Source: Thermococcus nautili
Lineage (GTDB): Archaea > Methanobacteriota_B > Thermococci > Thermococcales > Thermococcaceae
Assembly: GCF_000585495.1 (NCBI RefSeq)
Contig: NZ_CP007264.1
Coordinates: forward strand, 186,001-250,000
Direction: 5' to 3'
Length of the DNA: 64,000 nt
Shown: positions 8,065-13,795 of the stretch, piece after piece
Position numbering within the stretch: position 1 is the first letter of the stretch
How the letters are laid out: each line of letters starts with the position of its first letter
The notes under the pieces: generated by a model
The model's database searches: none
Told to the model about the DNA's origin: nothing
The model's input: only the letters and a program-made list of their open reading frames with translations
Program-made: the position numbers and the translations under genes

Positions 8065-9285
8065 ATGATACTCCAGGTCGCCCTTGATTTGACCGACATC
8101 GAGCAGGCCATCTCTATAGCTGAGAAGGCCGCTCGCGGTGGCGCTCACTGGCTTGAAGTCGGGACGCCACTCATCAAGAAGGAAGGCATGCGTGCCGTTG
8201 AGCTTCTCAAGAGACGCTTCCCGGACAGGAAGATTGTCGCCGACCTCAAGACGATGGACACCGGAGCTTTGGAAGTCGAGATGGCCGCGAGGCACGGAGC
8301 GGACGTCGTTTCTATTCTCGGTGTCGCGGACGACAAGACCATAAAGGACGCCGTTGACGTCGCGAGAAGGTACGGAATTAGGGTTATGGTTGACCTAATC
8401 GGCGTCAAGGATAAGGTCAAGCGCGCCAAAGAGCTCGAAAAGATGGGCGTTCACTACATACTCGTCCACACGGGTATAGACGAGCAGGCCCAGGGCAAGA
8501 GCCCCCTGCAGGACCTTGAGGAGGTCGTCAAGGCCGTTAAGGTTCCCGTCGCGGTCGCCGGCGGTCTGAACCTTGAAACGATTCCGAAGGTCATAGAGCT
8601 CGGCGCGACGATAATCATCGTCGGAAGCGCCATAACCAAGGCCAAGGACCCGGAGAAGGTCACGAGGCAGATAATCGACCTCTTCTGGGGCGAGTACATG
8701 CAGACCATCAGGAAGGCCATGAAGGACATCGTTGAGCACATAGGGAACGTTGCCGACAGCCTCAAGCTCGAGCAGGTTCGCGGCTTCGTTGATGCCATGA
8801 TTGGGGCCAACAAGATATTCATCTACGGGGCAGGAAGGAGCGGGCTCGTCGGAAAGGCCTTCGCTATGAGACTAATGCACCTCGACTTCAACGTCTACGT
8901 CGTCGGTGAAACCATAACGCCCGCCTTCGAGCAGGGCGACCTGCTCATAGCCATCAGCGGTTCCGGTGAGACTACGAGCATAGTCGATGCTGCAAAGATA
9001 GCCAAGAAGGAGGGCGGAAAGGTCGTTGCCATAACCTCCTACGCTAACTCGACCCTCGGAAAGCTGGCAGACGTCGTCGTCGAGATTCCGGGAAGGGCAA
9101 AGACAGACATCCCGACCGACTACATAGCGCGCCAGATGCTCACCAAGTACAAGTGGGTCGCCCCGATGGGAACCCTATTCGAGGACTCGACGATGGTGTT
9201 CCTTGACGGTATCATAGCCCTTCTCATGGCGACCTTCCAGAAGACCGAAAAGGATATGAAGAAGAAGCACGCGACCCTTGAGTGA
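8065..9285 (+). CDS. hps-phi: Bifunctional hexulose-6-phosphate synthase/6-phospho-3-hexuloisomerase
   Basis: 406 residues, a natural fusion. Residues 1 to about 210 are the synthase, an OMP-decarboxylase-like barrel (QVALDLTDIEQA, then DLKTMDTGALE and ILVHTGIDEQ). Residues from about 211 are the isomerase, a SIS domain with IYGAGRSGLVGKAFAMRL and ISGSGETTS. In Thermococcales, which lack a classical pentose phosphate route, this enzyme of the ribulose monophosphate pathway runs in reverse to make ribulose 5-phosphate and formaldehyde from fructose 6-phosphate. The frame extends further upstream, but ATG 8065, after TTTCGGAGGTCTCGCC, matches the known start. The next gene begins within ten bases, so they are probably co-transcribed. 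Confidence 0.97.
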   Translation: MILQVALDLTDIEQAISIAEKAARGGAHWLEVGTPLIKKEGMRAVELLKRRFPDRKIVADLKTMDTGALEVEMAARHGADVVSILGVADDKTIKDAVDVARRYGIRVMVDLIGVKDKVKRAKELEKMGVHYILVHTGIDEQAQGKSPLQDLEEVVKAVKVPVAVAGGLNLETIPKVIELGATIIIVGSAITKAKDPEKVTRQIIDLFWGEYMQTIRKAMKDIVEHIGNVADSLKLEQVRGFVDAMIGANKIFIYGAGRSGLVGKAFAMRLMHLDFNVYVVGETITPAFEQGDLLIAISGSGETTSIVDAAKIAKKEGGKVVAITSYANSTLGKLADVVVEIPGRAKTDIPTDYIARQMLTKYKWVAPMGTLFEDSTMVFLDGIIALLMATFQKTEKDMKKKHATLE

Positions 9286-9293
9286 GGGTTGCG

Positions 9294-10058
9294 ATGCGCT
9301 CTTTCACTCATCTTTTTGTTGGAATCGGCAACGCTGGAGCCAGGATAGTCGACAGGATAAGCGCCGACGGCGTGGTTAGGGTGACAATCAACCCCGGCCA
9401 CTACCTTCTGCGCCCGGGGCGCTACGCGGAGAGAATCAGGGACTTCTTCTCGCACCTGCCCGAGGACACCTTTCTGTGGCTTCTCTTCGAGGACAAGGAG
9501 ATAAACCTCGAACTGGTTGACCTTATCCTCGAACACAGCCCCTCGGACGCGATAAAGCTCGCCTACGTCCTCACGCCGAGAAGGGAACTCATCCACGAGA
9601 AGCCAGTTTGGGCTGATAACTTCGAGACCGTCTTCTACGACTCCCTCTGGGACTTCCTGAGCGAGGACGTGCCTTTGGGGGTTGCCTTCGAGCGGGCATC
9701 GGTTTCGATAGCCGAGCTCTTTTCGAGGCTCTACTACTACCTCGAAAACCAGATGCTGGTCAACATAGACTACGCCGACCTGTTCAACATGATTCGCGGG
9801 GGCAACGTCGGCATAATGCGCCTTCTCGATAGGGTTGATTTCAGCTGGCACTGGGGAATATGGGAGAGGGGTCTGATAGGAATCCTCGTCGGGAACGACT
9901 TCCCACTGAAGGGGGCCCACGAGATACTGTCGCGTTTCCAGGAAATCCTCGCCGAGAAGGATATAATATGGGGCATCGTGACCGATGAGAACGTTAAGGG
10001 TGTCGAGATACTCGCGTTGCTCGTGAAGGGGTGGGAGGATGAAGGCGGTTCTCTTTGA
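9294..10058 (+). CDS. Divergent FtsZ/tubulin-like protein lacking the GTPase signature
   Basis: 254 residues with no standard name. Three segments line up in order with FtsZ: the N-terminal Rossmann loop (LFVGIGNAGARIVDRI), the central VNIDYADLFNMIRGGNVGIM, which matches the VDFADV...G.A.MG stretch of FtsZ, and the C-terminal strand pair IIWGIVTDENVKGVEILALL, which matches the FtsZ C-domain. The tubulin signature GGGTGTG is missing: the corresponding part reads LWLLFEDKEINLE. Nucleotide binding by the usual mode is therefore doubtful. The ATG at 9294 is preferred; a GTG at 9282 overlaps the previous stop. The gene overlaps the following HAD gene by 20 bases. Family placement is my inference from motif order. 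Confidence 0.6.
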   Translation: MRSFTHLFVGIGNAGARIVDRISADGVVRVTINPGHYLLRPGRYAERIRDFFSHLPEDTFLWLLFEDKEINLELVDLILEHSPSDAIKLAYVLTPRRELIHEKPVWADNFETVFYDSLWDFLSEDVPLGVAFERASVSIAELFSRLYYYLENQMLVNIDYADLFNMIRGGNVGIMRLLDRVDFSWHWGIWERGLIGILVGNDFPLKGAHEILSRFQEILAEKDIIWGIVTDENVKGVEILALLVKGWEDEGGSL

Positions 10059-10674
10059 CGTTGATGGAACCCTGCTCACGGAAATGCCACTTATTCAGCT
10101 CTTCCTCCCCTGGGTCTACGATGAGCTCGCGAAGAGGCTCGGGGTCACCAAGGAGGAAGCGAGGGAGCGGTTCCTCAACGAGATTATGGCAAGGAGGGAC
10201 ACCTACGACTGGCACGACTGGAACTTCTTCTTCCGGCTCTTCAACGTTGACCTCAACTACGAAGAGCTCCTGAGAAGGTATCCCCACAAGCTCCACGTTT
10301 ACCCTGACGTTACACCAACGCTGGAGTGGCTGAGGGAGAGTGGATACCGCTTAGGAGTCGTCACGAGCGGGCCCGAGTACCAGAGGCTCAAGCTCGAACT
10401 TACCGGGCTCGATAAATACTTCGACGTAATCGTGACGCGGGAGGACGTGAAGGCAATAAAGCCCGAGCCGAAGATTTTTCTCCACGCCCTTGAAAGGCTC
10501 GGTGTTGAGCCCGGCGAGGCTCTCTACGTTGGCGACTCCCTCAGCCAGGACGTTTACGGGGCCAAGCACGTTGGAATGAGGGCCGTCTGGATTAACCGCG
10601 ACGGCTCGGACGGCTATCACATGGCCGATTACGAGATTAGAACCCTCCACGAGCTTAGGAAGATACTGGGGTGA
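10039..10674 (+). CDS. HAD-superfamily phosphatase
   Basis: 211 residues with the HAD motifs in order: motif I FDVDGT (nucleophile D7 in AVLFDVDGTLL), a helical cap (about 20-85), motif II VVTSG, motif III lysine in KAIKPEPKIF, and motif IV VGDSLSQD. The layout is that of small-molecule phosphatases of the phosphoglycolate/beta-phosphoglucomutase type with a C1 cap. Substrate unknown. The start lies inside the FtsZ-like gene, 20 bases before its stop, so translation is probably coupled. A 58-residue protein and a D-glutamate cyclase-like gene follow without gaps. Confidence 0.85.
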   Translation: MKAVLFDVDGTLLTEMPLIQLFLPWVYDELAKRLGVTKEEARERFLNEIMARRDTYDWHDWNFFFRLFNVDLNYEELLRRYPHKLHVYPDVTPTLEWLRESGYRLGVVTSGPEYQRLKLELTGLDKYFDVIVTREDVKAIKPEPKIFLHALERLGVEPGEALYVGDSLSQDVYGAKHVGMRAVWINRDGSDGYHMADYEIRTLHELRKILG

Positions 10675-10679
10675 TGGGT

Positions 10680-10856
10680 ATGAAGGTGTTCGAGGCGGAG
10701 GGTGTTTTCGTCCGCTACTCGGAGAAAGAGGTTGAGATAAGGCCCGGAGATAAACTCGTCCACAGGAGTGAGGAGCCAACGGAGCTCTGGTGGAAGCTTA
10801 AGGAGGCTGTCAAGGGCAGGAAGGTCAAGATAATAGTTTACGAGGTGGAAGAATGA
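10680..10856 (+). CDS. Hypothetical 58-residue protein
   Basis: A small protein (MKVFEAEGVFVRYSEKEVEI...KIIVYEVEE) predicted to be a beta hairpin, a helix (TELWWKLKEAVKG) and a final strand. ATG 10680 is preceded by GGTGATGG and starts 5 bases after the HAD stop; its own stop overlaps the next ATG (ATGA). The tight packing suggests a real gene in this operon. No family recognised. Confidence 0.65.
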   Translation: MKVFEAEGVFVRYSEKEVEIRPGDKLVHRSEEPTELWWKLKEAVKGRKVKIIVYEVEE

Positions 10857-11680
10857 TTGCCCACCTGATAAACACCGACGTCGGTGGCAGGGGCGTCGGA
10901 AGGCTCTATCTCGACTACAGGAGGAGGGACTTTAATTTTTTACATAATTCTGCAAAGCTGTTTTTAGATAATTATGGAAAAGTGCTAATCGTTACCGGCT
11001 TTCCAATTCCTCCAATGAACGTTCCGGAAACCGACGGTCCACCGGGGGCGCTGGCGCTGTACCGTGCCGTCAGGGAGCTCGGCGGGGAAGCTGAGATTCT
11101 CGCTCAGGAAGAGGTCATCAACGCGATGATTCCCTTCCAGAAGGCCCTTTCCCTGCGCTTTGCAGGGGAACCAGACGTCTCAAGCTACGACCTCGTAATC
11201 TTCGTCGAGACGCCCGGAAAGGCTCAGGACGGCAACCACTACTCCATGTCCGGCCTTCCGGTCGTTGGAGAAACCTTTGACTGGGTCGCGGAGGAGGCTA
11301 AAGAACATGGAATCCCGACGATTGGAATCGGCGACGGGGGCAACGAGATTGGTATGGGGAAGGTTCGGGATTTGGTGGTTCGCTACGTCCCGCACGGGGA
11401 GAATATAGCCTCTACAATCGAGACCGATGAGCTTATCCTCTCTGCTGTCTCTAACTGGGGGGCCTATGGTCTGATAGCCCAGGCCTCTCTGGAGCTCGGG
11501 AAGAACCTTCTCTCCGGCTGGGAGGAGGCCTTCGTCGTCAGGCTCCTCGTTGAGAGTGGCCTCATTGACGGCGTCAGCAAGAAAAGGGAAGTGAGCGTCG
11601 ACGGGATTCCAATCGAGGTTCACGTTGCTTTCGTTAAGTTTCTGAACGGGATTGTCGAGTTCAATCTCTCTAAAGTTTGA
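10853..11680 (+). CDS. D-glutamate cyclase-like protein (DUF4392)
   Basis: 275 residues. The glycine-rich GIGDGGNEIGMG (about residues 161-172) is the signature of DUF4392, the domain of mammalian D-glutamate cyclase that converts D-glutamate to 5-oxo-D-proline. LVIFVETPGKAQDGNHYSM and the N-terminal VLIVTGFPIPP also fit. The activity in archaea is not shown, so the name is by family only. Start ATG overlaps the previous stop. The stretch encoding about residues 27-43 (10931-10980) is about 80% A+T, unlike the rest of the gene, though the frame is intact. The 3' end overlaps by 11 bases the convergent Roadblock gene. Confidence 0.8.
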   Translation: MIAHLINTDVGGRGVGRLYLDYRRRDFNFLHNSAKLFLDNYGKVLIVTGFPIPPMNVPETDGPPGALALYRAVRELGGEAEILAQEEVINAMIPFQKALSLRFAGEPDVSSYDLVIFVETPGKAQDGNHYSMSGLPVVGETFDWVAEEAKEHGIPTIGIGDGGNEIGMGKVRDLVVRYVPHGENIASTIETDELILSAVSNWGAYGLIAQASLELGKNLLSGWEEAFVVRLLVESGLIDGVSKKREVSVDGIPIEVHVAFVKFLNGIVEFNLSKV

Positions 11681-12032
11681 GCTCCTCCCTTGTGGCCAGT
11701 TTCAGTTCTTCAATTTCCTCCCAGGTGAGGACTCTTGTGCCCTTTGTCAGCATCATCACGTCGCTCGTGACCTGCAGGATGCAGTAAACCGCGCTTGGGG
11801 TTATCACAAGGTAGTCGTTGGAGGGCTCTATCTCCGCCAGTCCCTTCTTGAGCTCGGGCAGCTTTGCGGAGAGCTCCTCGGGGGATTCAAGCGTCCCGCC
11901 TATGGGCAGGCCCTCGGTAGTTGCGAGAAGGAAGCCGCTTATTTCGAACTTTCTGAGGAGCATATCTTTAAAGTCCAAAAACTCTTGGCTCTCCGGTCTC
12001 AGAAGTTTCCTAAGCCTATCAAGCAGGCCCAT
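11670..12032 (-). CDS. Roadblock/LC7-like protein
   Basis: 120 residues. The segment FEISGFLLATTEGLPIGG has the Roadblock/LC7 strand-turn-strand (GxLLATxDGLPI), and the rest follows the alpha-beta pattern of that fold, ending in a longer helical tail (LTWEEIEELKLATREELKL). Roadblock proteins dimerise and in bacteria and archaea control small Ras-like GTPases (MglB type); no GTPase gene is adjacent. ATG 12032 follows GGAGGTTGGTAAAG. It begins 14 bases inside the end of the transposase-like gene and is presumably co-transcribed with it. A second Roadblock gene lies at 13442 on the other strand. Confidence 0.7.
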   Translation of the reverse strand: MGLLDRLRKLLRPESQEFLDFKDMLLRKFEISGFLLATTEGLPIGGTLESPEELSAKLPELKKGLAEIEPSNDYLVITPSAVYCILQVTSDVMMLTKGTRVLTWEEIEELKLATREELKL

Positions 12033-12822
12033 CTTTACCAACCTCCATCCCAATGCGTTTCATATATGATGAACACGAGGTCTCGACGAGTTCAACTCCC
12101 CGCGTTTTGAACCATTCATACGGATTCTCATGGGAGATTTCTTTTGAAATCCTCCTCGAAAGCCGTTTTTGAATTCGAATTAGCTCCTCTGAGGTTATCC
12201 ACTGGTATTCGACTCCAAGGTTCTTTAGGTGCCTCGTCAATTTGTTGTCTTTGCCTCTGGTTGGAACGAGCGGAGGCGTTCTTGAGAGAAGAATGAGGGT
12301 TCGCTTTCCCTTCAGGCACTCTAAAACTCCATCGATTGTGTCTATGATGGGTTTGAGCCTGAGTGACTCTGCAAGCTTCCACAGAAGTATTTTGCAGTTT
12401 TTGACATCAACCATGAGGAGGAGTCTGTTGCGCTGTTCCTTCAGCGTGATGTGGAGAACTAGAATCCCAACGACCGCGTCCCACTCAAGAAGCGTTTGAA
12501 GGATTTCTCCCGAGATTTGCTTTGTTCTGTGCTCCCTGATGACGCTCCAAACCTTGTACCGAGATATTTTAACCCCCGTCTTCAAGAGGTGGTTGTGGAT
12601 TTCCTCTATGGTATGCCCCCGCTCCTTTAAATCGACTATGAGGTTTACTATTTCTGATGGAAGTTCTTTCTTTTTCCTGCCTGGAGTTTTAATCTGTTTC
12701 GTTTTAAGAACCTGGAGTACGCGCCTTCGCGACACGCCCAGCACCGCCGCGATTTCATCGAGCTTCATTCCATCCTCTCGAAGCTTCAGTATCCTTTCAA
12801 CGTCCTCTGGTTTGAGCTTCAT
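12019..12822 (-). CDS. HTH protein resembling a domesticated DDE transposase
   Basis: 267 residues. The N-terminal part has two helix-turn-helix units: DGMKLDEIAAVLGVSRRRVL, then a second (HTIEEIHNHLLKTGVKISR), the arrangement of IS481/IS630-type transposase and integrase heads. The remainder has the strand pattern of an RNase H-like core (NRLLLMVDVKNCKILLW; GKRTLILLS), but the DDE catalytic triad is not convincingly present. I see no terminal inverted repeats or target duplication around it. It shares an operon with the Roadblock gene and has a TATA box (GTTATATAAACC on its strand, near 12849-12861). It probably acts as a DNA-binding protein; that is inference. Confidence 0.6.
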   Translation of the reverse strand: MKLKPEDVERILKLREDGMKLDEIAAVLGVSRRRVLQVLKTKQIKTPGRKKKELPSEIVNLIVDLKERGHTIEEIHNHLLKTGVKISRYKVWSVIREHRTKQISGEILQTLLEWDAVVGILVLHITLKEQRNRLLLMVDVKNCKILLWKLAESLRLKPIIDTIDGVLECLKGKRTLILLSRTPPLVPTRGKDNKLTRHLKNLGVEYQWITSEELIRIQKRLSRRISKEISHENPYEWFKTRGVELVETSCSSYMKRIGMEVGKDGPA

Positions 12823-12953
12823 AGGTCGTTGTGTGCTACTAATTTGGCAGGTTTATATAACTAATGCGAAATCTTTTCCAAATAATAGGCGGCAAATATT
12901 ATATCGCGTCGTGACATCGTGTTGCTGACCTGCCCCTTCGAGGGGTGTCACCC
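12823..12953. promoter_or_regulatory. Divergent promoter region between the two Roadblock units
   Basis: A 131-base gap. GGTTTATATAAC (about 12850-12861) is nearly symmetrical and can serve the reverse unit; AAATATTATATC (12894-12905) can serve the forward unit. Just before the forward gene, CCCCT-TCG-AGGGG (12933-12945) forms a hairpin that contains the ribosome-binding site AGGGGTG, and GTGACA (12911-12916) is the inverse of TGTCAC (12946-12951). The structure could occlude the start or act as a DNA operator. Confidence 0.5.
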
Positions 12954-13436
12954 ATGACGGAGGCGAAGGTCGTGGAGAGGGTTAATGAGAGGTCTGAGGA
13001 AATGGCGACTAAAATAAACAACCTGATTCTCTACGGAATATACAAAGTCCTCGGGGCTGGAGCCAAGGGACTTGGAAACTCTGTTGGTGAGGAGCTTTTG
13101 AATACAATGATGGAGGAGTACGGACTAAACTTTGAGGGAAGCGATGACCCCCAGGAGCTCCTCAACCGCTTCACAGAGGTTATGATAAACACCCTCGGGT
13201 TTGCCGAGAGGGGTGAAATCATCGTGAACGGAAACAACGTCACCTTGAAGCTCGACAATCCCATGGACCTGTACGCCCTTCAGCTACTCGAGAAGAAGGG
13301 CATGAAGCCCATGCTCTACCCGATGGCCAACGCCATAGCCGTCGCCATCAAGAAGTTCAGCGGAAAGAACGTCCTGATTAAGGAAATTCGCGTTTCGGAC
13401 AAGCACGTTGAAGTTGATATGCTGATTCTGGGGTGA
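12954..13436 (+). CDS. Hypothetical protein linked to Roadblock gene, possibly V4R/TRAPP-like
   Basis: 160 residues. A helical N-terminus (LILYGIYKVLGAGAKGLGNSVGEELL) leads into a mixed region ending in two strands (VLIKEIRVSDKHVEVDMLILG). The order of a long helix, GxxxGxxL and terminal strands recalls V4R/TRAPP-type ligand domains, but no cysteine-rich V4R tail is present, so this is weak. ATG 12954 follows AGGGGTG. It is the first gene of a forward unit with a Roadblock gene (gap 5 bases) and a further hypothetical gene. Function unknown. Confidence 0.6.
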   Translation: MTEAKVVERVNERSEEMATKINNLILYGIYKVLGAGAKGLGNSVGEELLNTMMEEYGLNFEGSDDPQELLNRFTEVMINTLGFAERGEIIVNGNNVTLKLDNPMDLYALQLLEKKGMKPMLYPMANAIAVAIKKFSGKNVLIKEIRVSDKHVEVDMLILG

Positions 13437-13441
13437 TGTGA

Positions 13442-13795
13442 ATGTTTGAGAACGTTATTGCAGACCTTCTCAGGGTTGATGGCGTCAAGGGAGTTGCCAT
13501 AGTGAGCAAGGACGGTCTCCTCATCGAGGGTCAGGCGAGCGACAGGACGATAGACGTTGAGAGCGTCGCCGCGATGGTCGCGACCATCTACGGTACTGCA
13601 CTCAACGTGTCCAATGAGGTCTTCCACGAGGAAGCCGTTGACATGGTCACGCTCGAATCGCCGAAGGGCAAAATCATTACCGTCGAGGCGGGTGAAAACG
13701 CGGTCCTGACGGTTCTCACAGACCCGAAGGTCAACCTCGGTCTCGTCAGGATTTACCTCAAGAGGAACGCCCAGAAGGTCGCCTCAATGCTTTAG
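13442..13795 (+). CDS. Roadblock/LC7 domain protein
   Basis: 117 residues, a single Roadblock/LC7 domain: MFENVIADLLRVDGVKGVAI, then VSKDGLLIEG, the helix ESVAAMVATIYGTAL, and the strand GKIITVEAGENAVLTVL followed by a C-terminal helix. The family forms dimers that bind Ras-like GTPases or, in MglB, act as GTPase activators. It is the second of three genes packed within 20 bases, between a possible V4R-like protein and a DUF2226/DUF4388-like protein. The pairing with the Roadblock gene at 11670 suggests a local signalling module. Confidence 0.85.
   Translation: MFENVIADLLRVDGVKGVAIVSKDGLLIEGQASDRTIDVESVAAMVATIYGTALNVSNEVFHEEAVDMVTLESPKGKIITVEAGENAVLTVLTDPKVNLGLVRIYLKRNAQKVASML

Follow-up and report, generated by a model that had tools for sequence, protein, structure and literature searches.

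Introduction

In FtsZ filaments, the bottom of one subunit, made up of the T7 loop, strand S9 and helices H8 and H10, meets H1/H2, T5, T3 and the H6-H7 loop of its neighbour (PMC8936486). Loops T1 to T4 bind the phosphates of the nucleotide, T5 the ribose and T6 the guanine; T7 supplies two catalytic aspartates that hydrolyse the GTP of the neighbouring subunit, and growth is proposed to take place at the bottom end (PMC8936486). MciZ caps this bottom (growing) end in B. subtilis (PMC8936486), and in chloroplasts ARC3, an FtsZ chimera, inhibits FtsZ assembly (PMC5855766). Two divergent prokaryotic families have also been described, FtsZl2, recognised through its Tubulin GTPase domain, and FtsZl1, located in vWA/GTPase operons (Makarova and Koonin 2010, PMC2875224). 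For Thermococcales, CetZ has been reported together with an additional divergent protein of the superfamily in two strains only (PMC9856176).

In this study we focus on a protein encoded in a 64,000-nucleotide stretch of Thermococcus nautili DNA, which is called the window below. It is a fourth FtsZ/CetZ paralogue, specific to Thermococcales and additional to the canonical FtsZ1, FtsZ2 and CetZ; its family stands outside canonical FtsZ, as do FtsZl1 and FtsZl2. To our knowledge, little has been established about archaeal division regulators beyond SepF and CdrS, and we know of no established modulator of FtsZ filaments in Thermococcales. Literature searches by locus tag and by concept returned no description of the family in the main texts of open papers. 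It was likewise not found in the literature on divergent FtsZ and tubulin proteins (PMC2875224, PMC9856176, PMC9871819), of which PMC9871819 does not mention Thermococcales. The one paper that the concept search retrieved appears to deal with S. aureus FtsZ rather than with this family.

Results

Descent from FtsZ

The open reading frame (Table 1) begins with ATG, the start common to the orthologs, a GTG start that would lengthen it by 12 nt being possible. The three segments in which the first-pass annotation had recognised FtsZ are all found in it, in the same order. Pfam gives no match, so that the annotation 'hypothetical' is to be expected, and the NCBIfam ftsZ model matches at E 0.0046 with 16.3 bits, below the family cut-off of 295.2 bits. 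Searched alone against the PDB, the window protein has M. jannaschii FtsZ as best match (E 0.0098); within its own genome, FtsZ2 is the only other match at E ≤ 1e-3 (9.6e-5, residues 114-241). Genuine FtsZ is also the next-best match of single-sequence searches in dozens of Thermococcales genomes independently, with E values down to 5.5e-6.

Table 1. Features of the locus, in window coordinates.
Feature	Position	Strand	Basis
hps-phi, fused 3-hexulose-6-phosphate synthase / 6-phospho-3-hexuloisomerase	8065..9285	+	NF041755, 2.3e-166, above cut-off
FtsZ-derived protein without nucleotide site, 254 aa	9294..10058	+	Open reading frame, FtsZ homology, FtsZ fold, purifying selection
Remnant of FtsZ loop T1, GIGNAG, residues 10-15	9321..9338	+	Sole glycine-rich loop left
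Position of the tubulin signature loop T4 in FtsZ, here FEDKEIN and not GGGTGTG	9486..9506	+	Alignment with own-genome FtsZ1, FtsZ2 and CetZ
T7 synergy loop, NIDYAD	9762..9779	+	N-[IV]-D-x-A-D in 68/68 distinct orthologs
Family-specific loop SWHWGIWER, where FtsZ has helix H9	9843..9869	+	Invariant W/G residues; H9 absent in models
Strand S9, KDIIWG, contact region B of the filament, common to archaeal FtsZ	9957..9974	+	Identity to FtsZ1/2
HAD-type hydrolase, its first 20 nt lying within the FtsZ-like gene	10039..10674	+	TIGR02253, 5.2e-55, above cut-off; conserved neighbour
Conserved 59-61-aa protein without family	10677..10856	+	No Pfam or NCBIfam match; conserved neighbour
D-glutamate cyclase-like protein	10853..11680	+	PF14336, 3.6e-66; neighbour in most genera

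The signal is stronger at the level of the family. NCBIfam ftsZ is matched by 39/40 orthologs (best 4.6e-8) and FtsZ_C by 24/40, while a profile made from the alignment of these 40 orthologs retrieves M. jannaschii FtsZ from the PDB at 5.6e-7, its other matches being FtsZ/tubulin-family chains and two non-significant unrelated entries. In profile-profile comparison (hhalign) the family matches FtsZ2 with 97% probability (E 1.3e-11) and FtsZ1 with E 1.2e-8, whereas CetZ gives no significant match (1.3% probability, E 0.038). Twenty residues are shared at 80% or more in both the family and FtsZ. The protein is truly homologous to FtsZ, with a similarity beyond chance, and the profiles point to Thermococcales FtsZ2, not CetZ, as its nearest relative. 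An origin from CetZ was rejected on the profile result, and membership of FtsZl1 was rejected since there is neither a match to Pfam Tubulin_2, the FtsZl1 domain, nor a vWA/GTPase operon. In the phylogenetic tree the members group together as a single clade (100/100), set apart by a stem of 5.4 substitutions per site; because this stem is long, the tree does not place the family beside FtsZ1 or FtsZ2.

Homology to FtsZ2 of the same genome (C1:1421699-1422205, L032) extends over H7, T7 and the C-terminal domain, with T7 loops (NIDFAD in FtsZ2, NIDYAD here) that are identical or nearly so. FtsZ2, however, has 411 residues with T3, GNGTGTG, the guanine Asp, H9, an N-terminal extension and a SepF-binding tail, all of which are absent from the 254-residue protein. 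The same regions are homologous in FtsZ1 (L031), whose S9 strand IIWG is closely similar, and the same features are lost relative to it. CetZ (L033) belongs to the same superfamily, but its T7 reads TLDASD.

Predicted fold

AlphaFold2 models were obtained for the window protein (pLDDT 84.3, pTM 0.84) and for a distant ortholog, 47% identical (pLDDT 81.8). In Foldseek searches, all top 50 PDB matches of each model are FtsZ (best E 3e-13 and 4e-10), with TM values normalised by the query mostly between 0.62 and 0.75. This structure check had been named beforehand, and it predicts the FtsZ fold for both models with no better match to another Rossmann family; the latter alternative was rejected on these two models and on the ortholog-profile search of the PDB. 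According to the models, the two-domain fold joined by H7 is kept. An alignment with FtsZ1, FtsZ2 and CetZ of the same genomes, combined with the modelled secondary structure, identifies S1, H1, S2, H2, H3, S4, H4, S5, S6, H7, T7, H8, S7, S8, H10, S9 and S10.

A dismantled top face and a retained bottom face

The first-pass annotation had remarked on the missing GGGTGTG, and indeed no G-x-GTG run occurs in the window protein or in any of 68 distinct orthologs. Its view that the GTP-binding signature is absent holds, although the losses are broader than it noted, as they also take in T3, the T4 loop, helix H9, the H5 region and the Asp that contacts guanine. A segment of about 25 residues (S3/T3) is deleted just upstream of the place of T4, which reads FEDKxxN in the family; the H5/T5 region is shortened, with most of T5/H5 missing or replaced. 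The H7 aspartate that is the guanine contact in FtsZ structures is replaced by S/T/A/G at residue 136. Helix H9 is missing from both models, and W185, W187, G188 and W190 of the loop in its place are invariant in the 40 orthologs. The N-terminal extension of FtsZ is also missing, as is a C-terminal tail with the SepF-binding peptide, all orthologs ending at S10 or within about 20 residues of it. T1 keeps GIGNxG, with G10 and G12 invariant and G15 at 97% (40 orthologs). On the side of the former pocket W62, N71, Y91, Y115 and D116 are invariant, and, after T7, the highest conservation of any block is that of ETVFYDS, near T6 on the nucleotide side.

All 68 distinct orthologs keep the T7 motif N-[IV]-D-x-A-D, although overall identity falls to 47% in some, and N157, D159, A161 and D162 are invariant in the 40/40 aligned. 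N157, D159 and D162 correspond to N208, D210 and D213 of S. aureus FtsZ, whose roles are described in PMC8936486. Identity to FtsZ1/2 is 0.50 for T7 and 0.42 for S9, the parts most like these proteins, against 0.25 for H8, 0.18 for H10 and 0.17 for the N-terminal domain; H10 is conserved no better than average. Pooled, the four bottom contact elements show a marginal enrichment (permutation p 0.04; 12/134 circular shifts as high). The receiving (top), nucleotide-binding face has been taken apart, and the giving (bottom) one, with T7 and S9, is kept under strong selection.

Gene neighbourhood

As the first-pass annotation stated, the gene lies between hps-phi and a HAD phosphatase. The conserved order is hps-phi, FtsZ-like gene, HAD phosphatase, 59-61-aa protein and D-glutamate-cyclase-like gene. 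It had also been asked if hps-phi is a constant neighbour of the gene; in a survey of 66 loci, two of them not assessable for hps-phi, this was so in 64/64, with a distance of 9-57 nt in 60 loci, 191 nt in one, and one inserted gene in three. The three loci with the insertion (L075, L079 and L107) belong to one Thermococcus lineage, and the inserted gene, read in L107, is phosphoglycerate-mutase-like by eye. No Thermococcales locus of sufficient length lacks the 59-61-aa protein. In these archaea HPS-PHI converts fructose-6-phosphate to ribulose-5-phosphate for nucleotide synthesis (PMC12628685).

Further along the window, a 127-aa protein without family is encoded on the opposite strand (11670-12053, -), with conserved genes on either side; where other Thermococcus loci have it, identity is mostly only 34-41%. 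A few genes downstream, at 12945-13795, a Roadblock/LC7 protein (PF03259) stands beside a 163-aa protein without Pfam family, the latter being 86-97% identical in other Thermococcus.

Distribution and selection

Orthologs were found in 89/94 Thermococcaceae genomes, covering all six genera. Assembly gaps account for the other five: the HAD gene is cut by a contig end in G088, hps-phi is cut in the same way in G016 and G033, and hps-phi itself is missing from the assemblies of G002 and G077. Real gene loss in these five is not supported, and every well-assembled Thermococcales genome carries the gene. The other 21 genomes of the class gave matches at the level of genuine FtsZ or none, a pattern-based scan of contigs from about 85,000 species found the family only in Thermococcales, and a search of viral contigs yielded no relatives. 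In the Thermococcaceae genomes checked, FtsZ1, FtsZ2 and CetZ all occur, with a fourth tubulin-domain match in one or two; one such match (G064:C1:1627565-1627783) lies inside an open frame of 1135 aa, possibly a large divergent protein of the tubulin superfamily.

Pairwise dN/dS is 0.04-0.14 over twelve pairs with finite dS, several of which exceed 1 and make those ratios rough, and about 50 residues are invariant in the 40-ortholog alignment. Among the four FtsZ/CetZ paralogues this protein evolves fastest, for example with 53% identity where FtsZ1 and FtsZ2 have 84% and 72%. The gene is under strong purifying selection and is not a pseudogene. In G095 a second, broken copy (L084, G095:C2:360944-361698), in two frames with internal stops, accompanies the intact L085, possibly through a mixed assembly.

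Discussion

We tentatively propose, with less than even confidence and from the kept T7 face, that this protein may be a 'pseudo-FtsZ' turned regulator, 'top-dead, bottom-intact', and not a builder of filaments. It would sit on the surface of FtsZ2 or FtsZ1 that carries GTP and act as an end cap, sequesterer or GTPase activator. Among the roles raised by the first-pass annotation, that of modulator of the true FtsZ is favoured because the T7 catalytic loop is kept and the nucleotide face lost. The bottom face of the protein would attach to FtsZ2 (or FtsZ1) at the exposed top face that carries GTP. Filaments are proposed to grow at the bottom, so an FtsZ with a dead top would be expected at the minus end or on free GTP-FtsZ. 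Once docked, its T7 aspartates could trigger hydrolysis of the GTP of the partner. Nothing could add beyond it because its own top face is gone, so that the minus end would be capped or GTP-FtsZ sequestered, and filaments limited or shortened. A partner would always be available, since no Thermococcaceae genome checked lacks FtsZ1 or FtsZ2. More speculatively, synthesis together with hps-phi may couple this brake on division to nucleotide supply. The complete picture, in which the universal nucleotide-free FtsZ of Thermococcales would cap FtsZ2/FtsZ1 filaments at the minus end or activate their GTPase in trans, and would tie division to nucleotide supply through co-expression with hps-phi, is unlikely to hold in all its parts.

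ARC3 provides a precedent for an FtsZ-derived inhibitor of FtsZ, although it is plant-specific and has a MORN domain, unlike the protein described here. What ARC3 has of FtsZ is the N-terminal nucleotide domain, whereas the Thermococcales protein keeps the other half. MciZ is an end-capping modulator as well, but is small and unrelated, and the predicted target here is the top (minus) end.

Several points weigh against the cap model. Folding or cation binding could be the reason why T7 is kept, the apparent enrichment of the pooled bottom contact elements is weak, and the faster evolution relative to FtsZ1 and FtsZ2 agrees only loosely with a protein tied to a conserved partner surface. Moreover, the operon is metabolic and not a division cluster, and the invariant blocks ETVFYDS and WHWGIW are not accounted for. 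The last two points bear on the main rival, a metabolic role in the hps-phi operon, in which the FtsZ fold would have been recruited for binding to HPS-PHI, the HAD phosphatase or a sugar phosphate. The protein would then serve the pentose/HAD operon outside the cytoskeleton, as subunit or regulator, contact with FtsZ being lost. The gene order from hps-phi to the small protein, kept in all genera, and the 20-nt overlap with the HAD gene speak for it, as do the two blocks, which have no counterpart in FtsZ. However, it gives the T7 catalytic motif no reason to remain invariant, hps-phi (87-99% identical) evolves very differently from its neighbour, HPS-PHI enzymes are widespread without the protein, and the pattern scan and the other genomes of the class yielded no such protein outside Thermococcales. 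We regard this reading as possible but rather improbable.

Two further alternatives each seem quite unlikely. The protein might still make filaments or heteropolymers, through a nucleotide-independent top face of its own or in alternation with FtsZ, as the models show both domains, H7 and the bottom face in full and a novel conserved surface lies near T6; but of the four top contact elements two, T3 and T5, are missing or reshaped, the phosphate loop is absent, and a copolymer would break at each copy. The invariant or nearly invariant glycines of T1 and the five invariant residues on the former pocket side would suit a metabolite sensor whose remnant pocket binds another ligand, such as a dinucleotide or a sugar phosphate, through GxGxxG. 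Against this, T1 alone remains of the pocket, GxGxxG is ancestral to FtsZ T1, and the profile and fold searches give FtsZ and not NAD-binding Rossmann proteins. A decaying relic of an FtsZ duplication, which the long stem and the fastest evolution among the paralogues might suggest, has next to no probability, being refuted by the dN/dS values, the universality of the gene and its invariant residues.

With its top dead and its bottom intact, a conserved FtsZ paralogue that lacks a nucleotide site would amount to a separation-of-function variant of FtsZ made by nature. Through it, filament polarity, GTPase activation in trans and control of the minus end can be tested directly in hyperthermophiles that are amenable to genetics.
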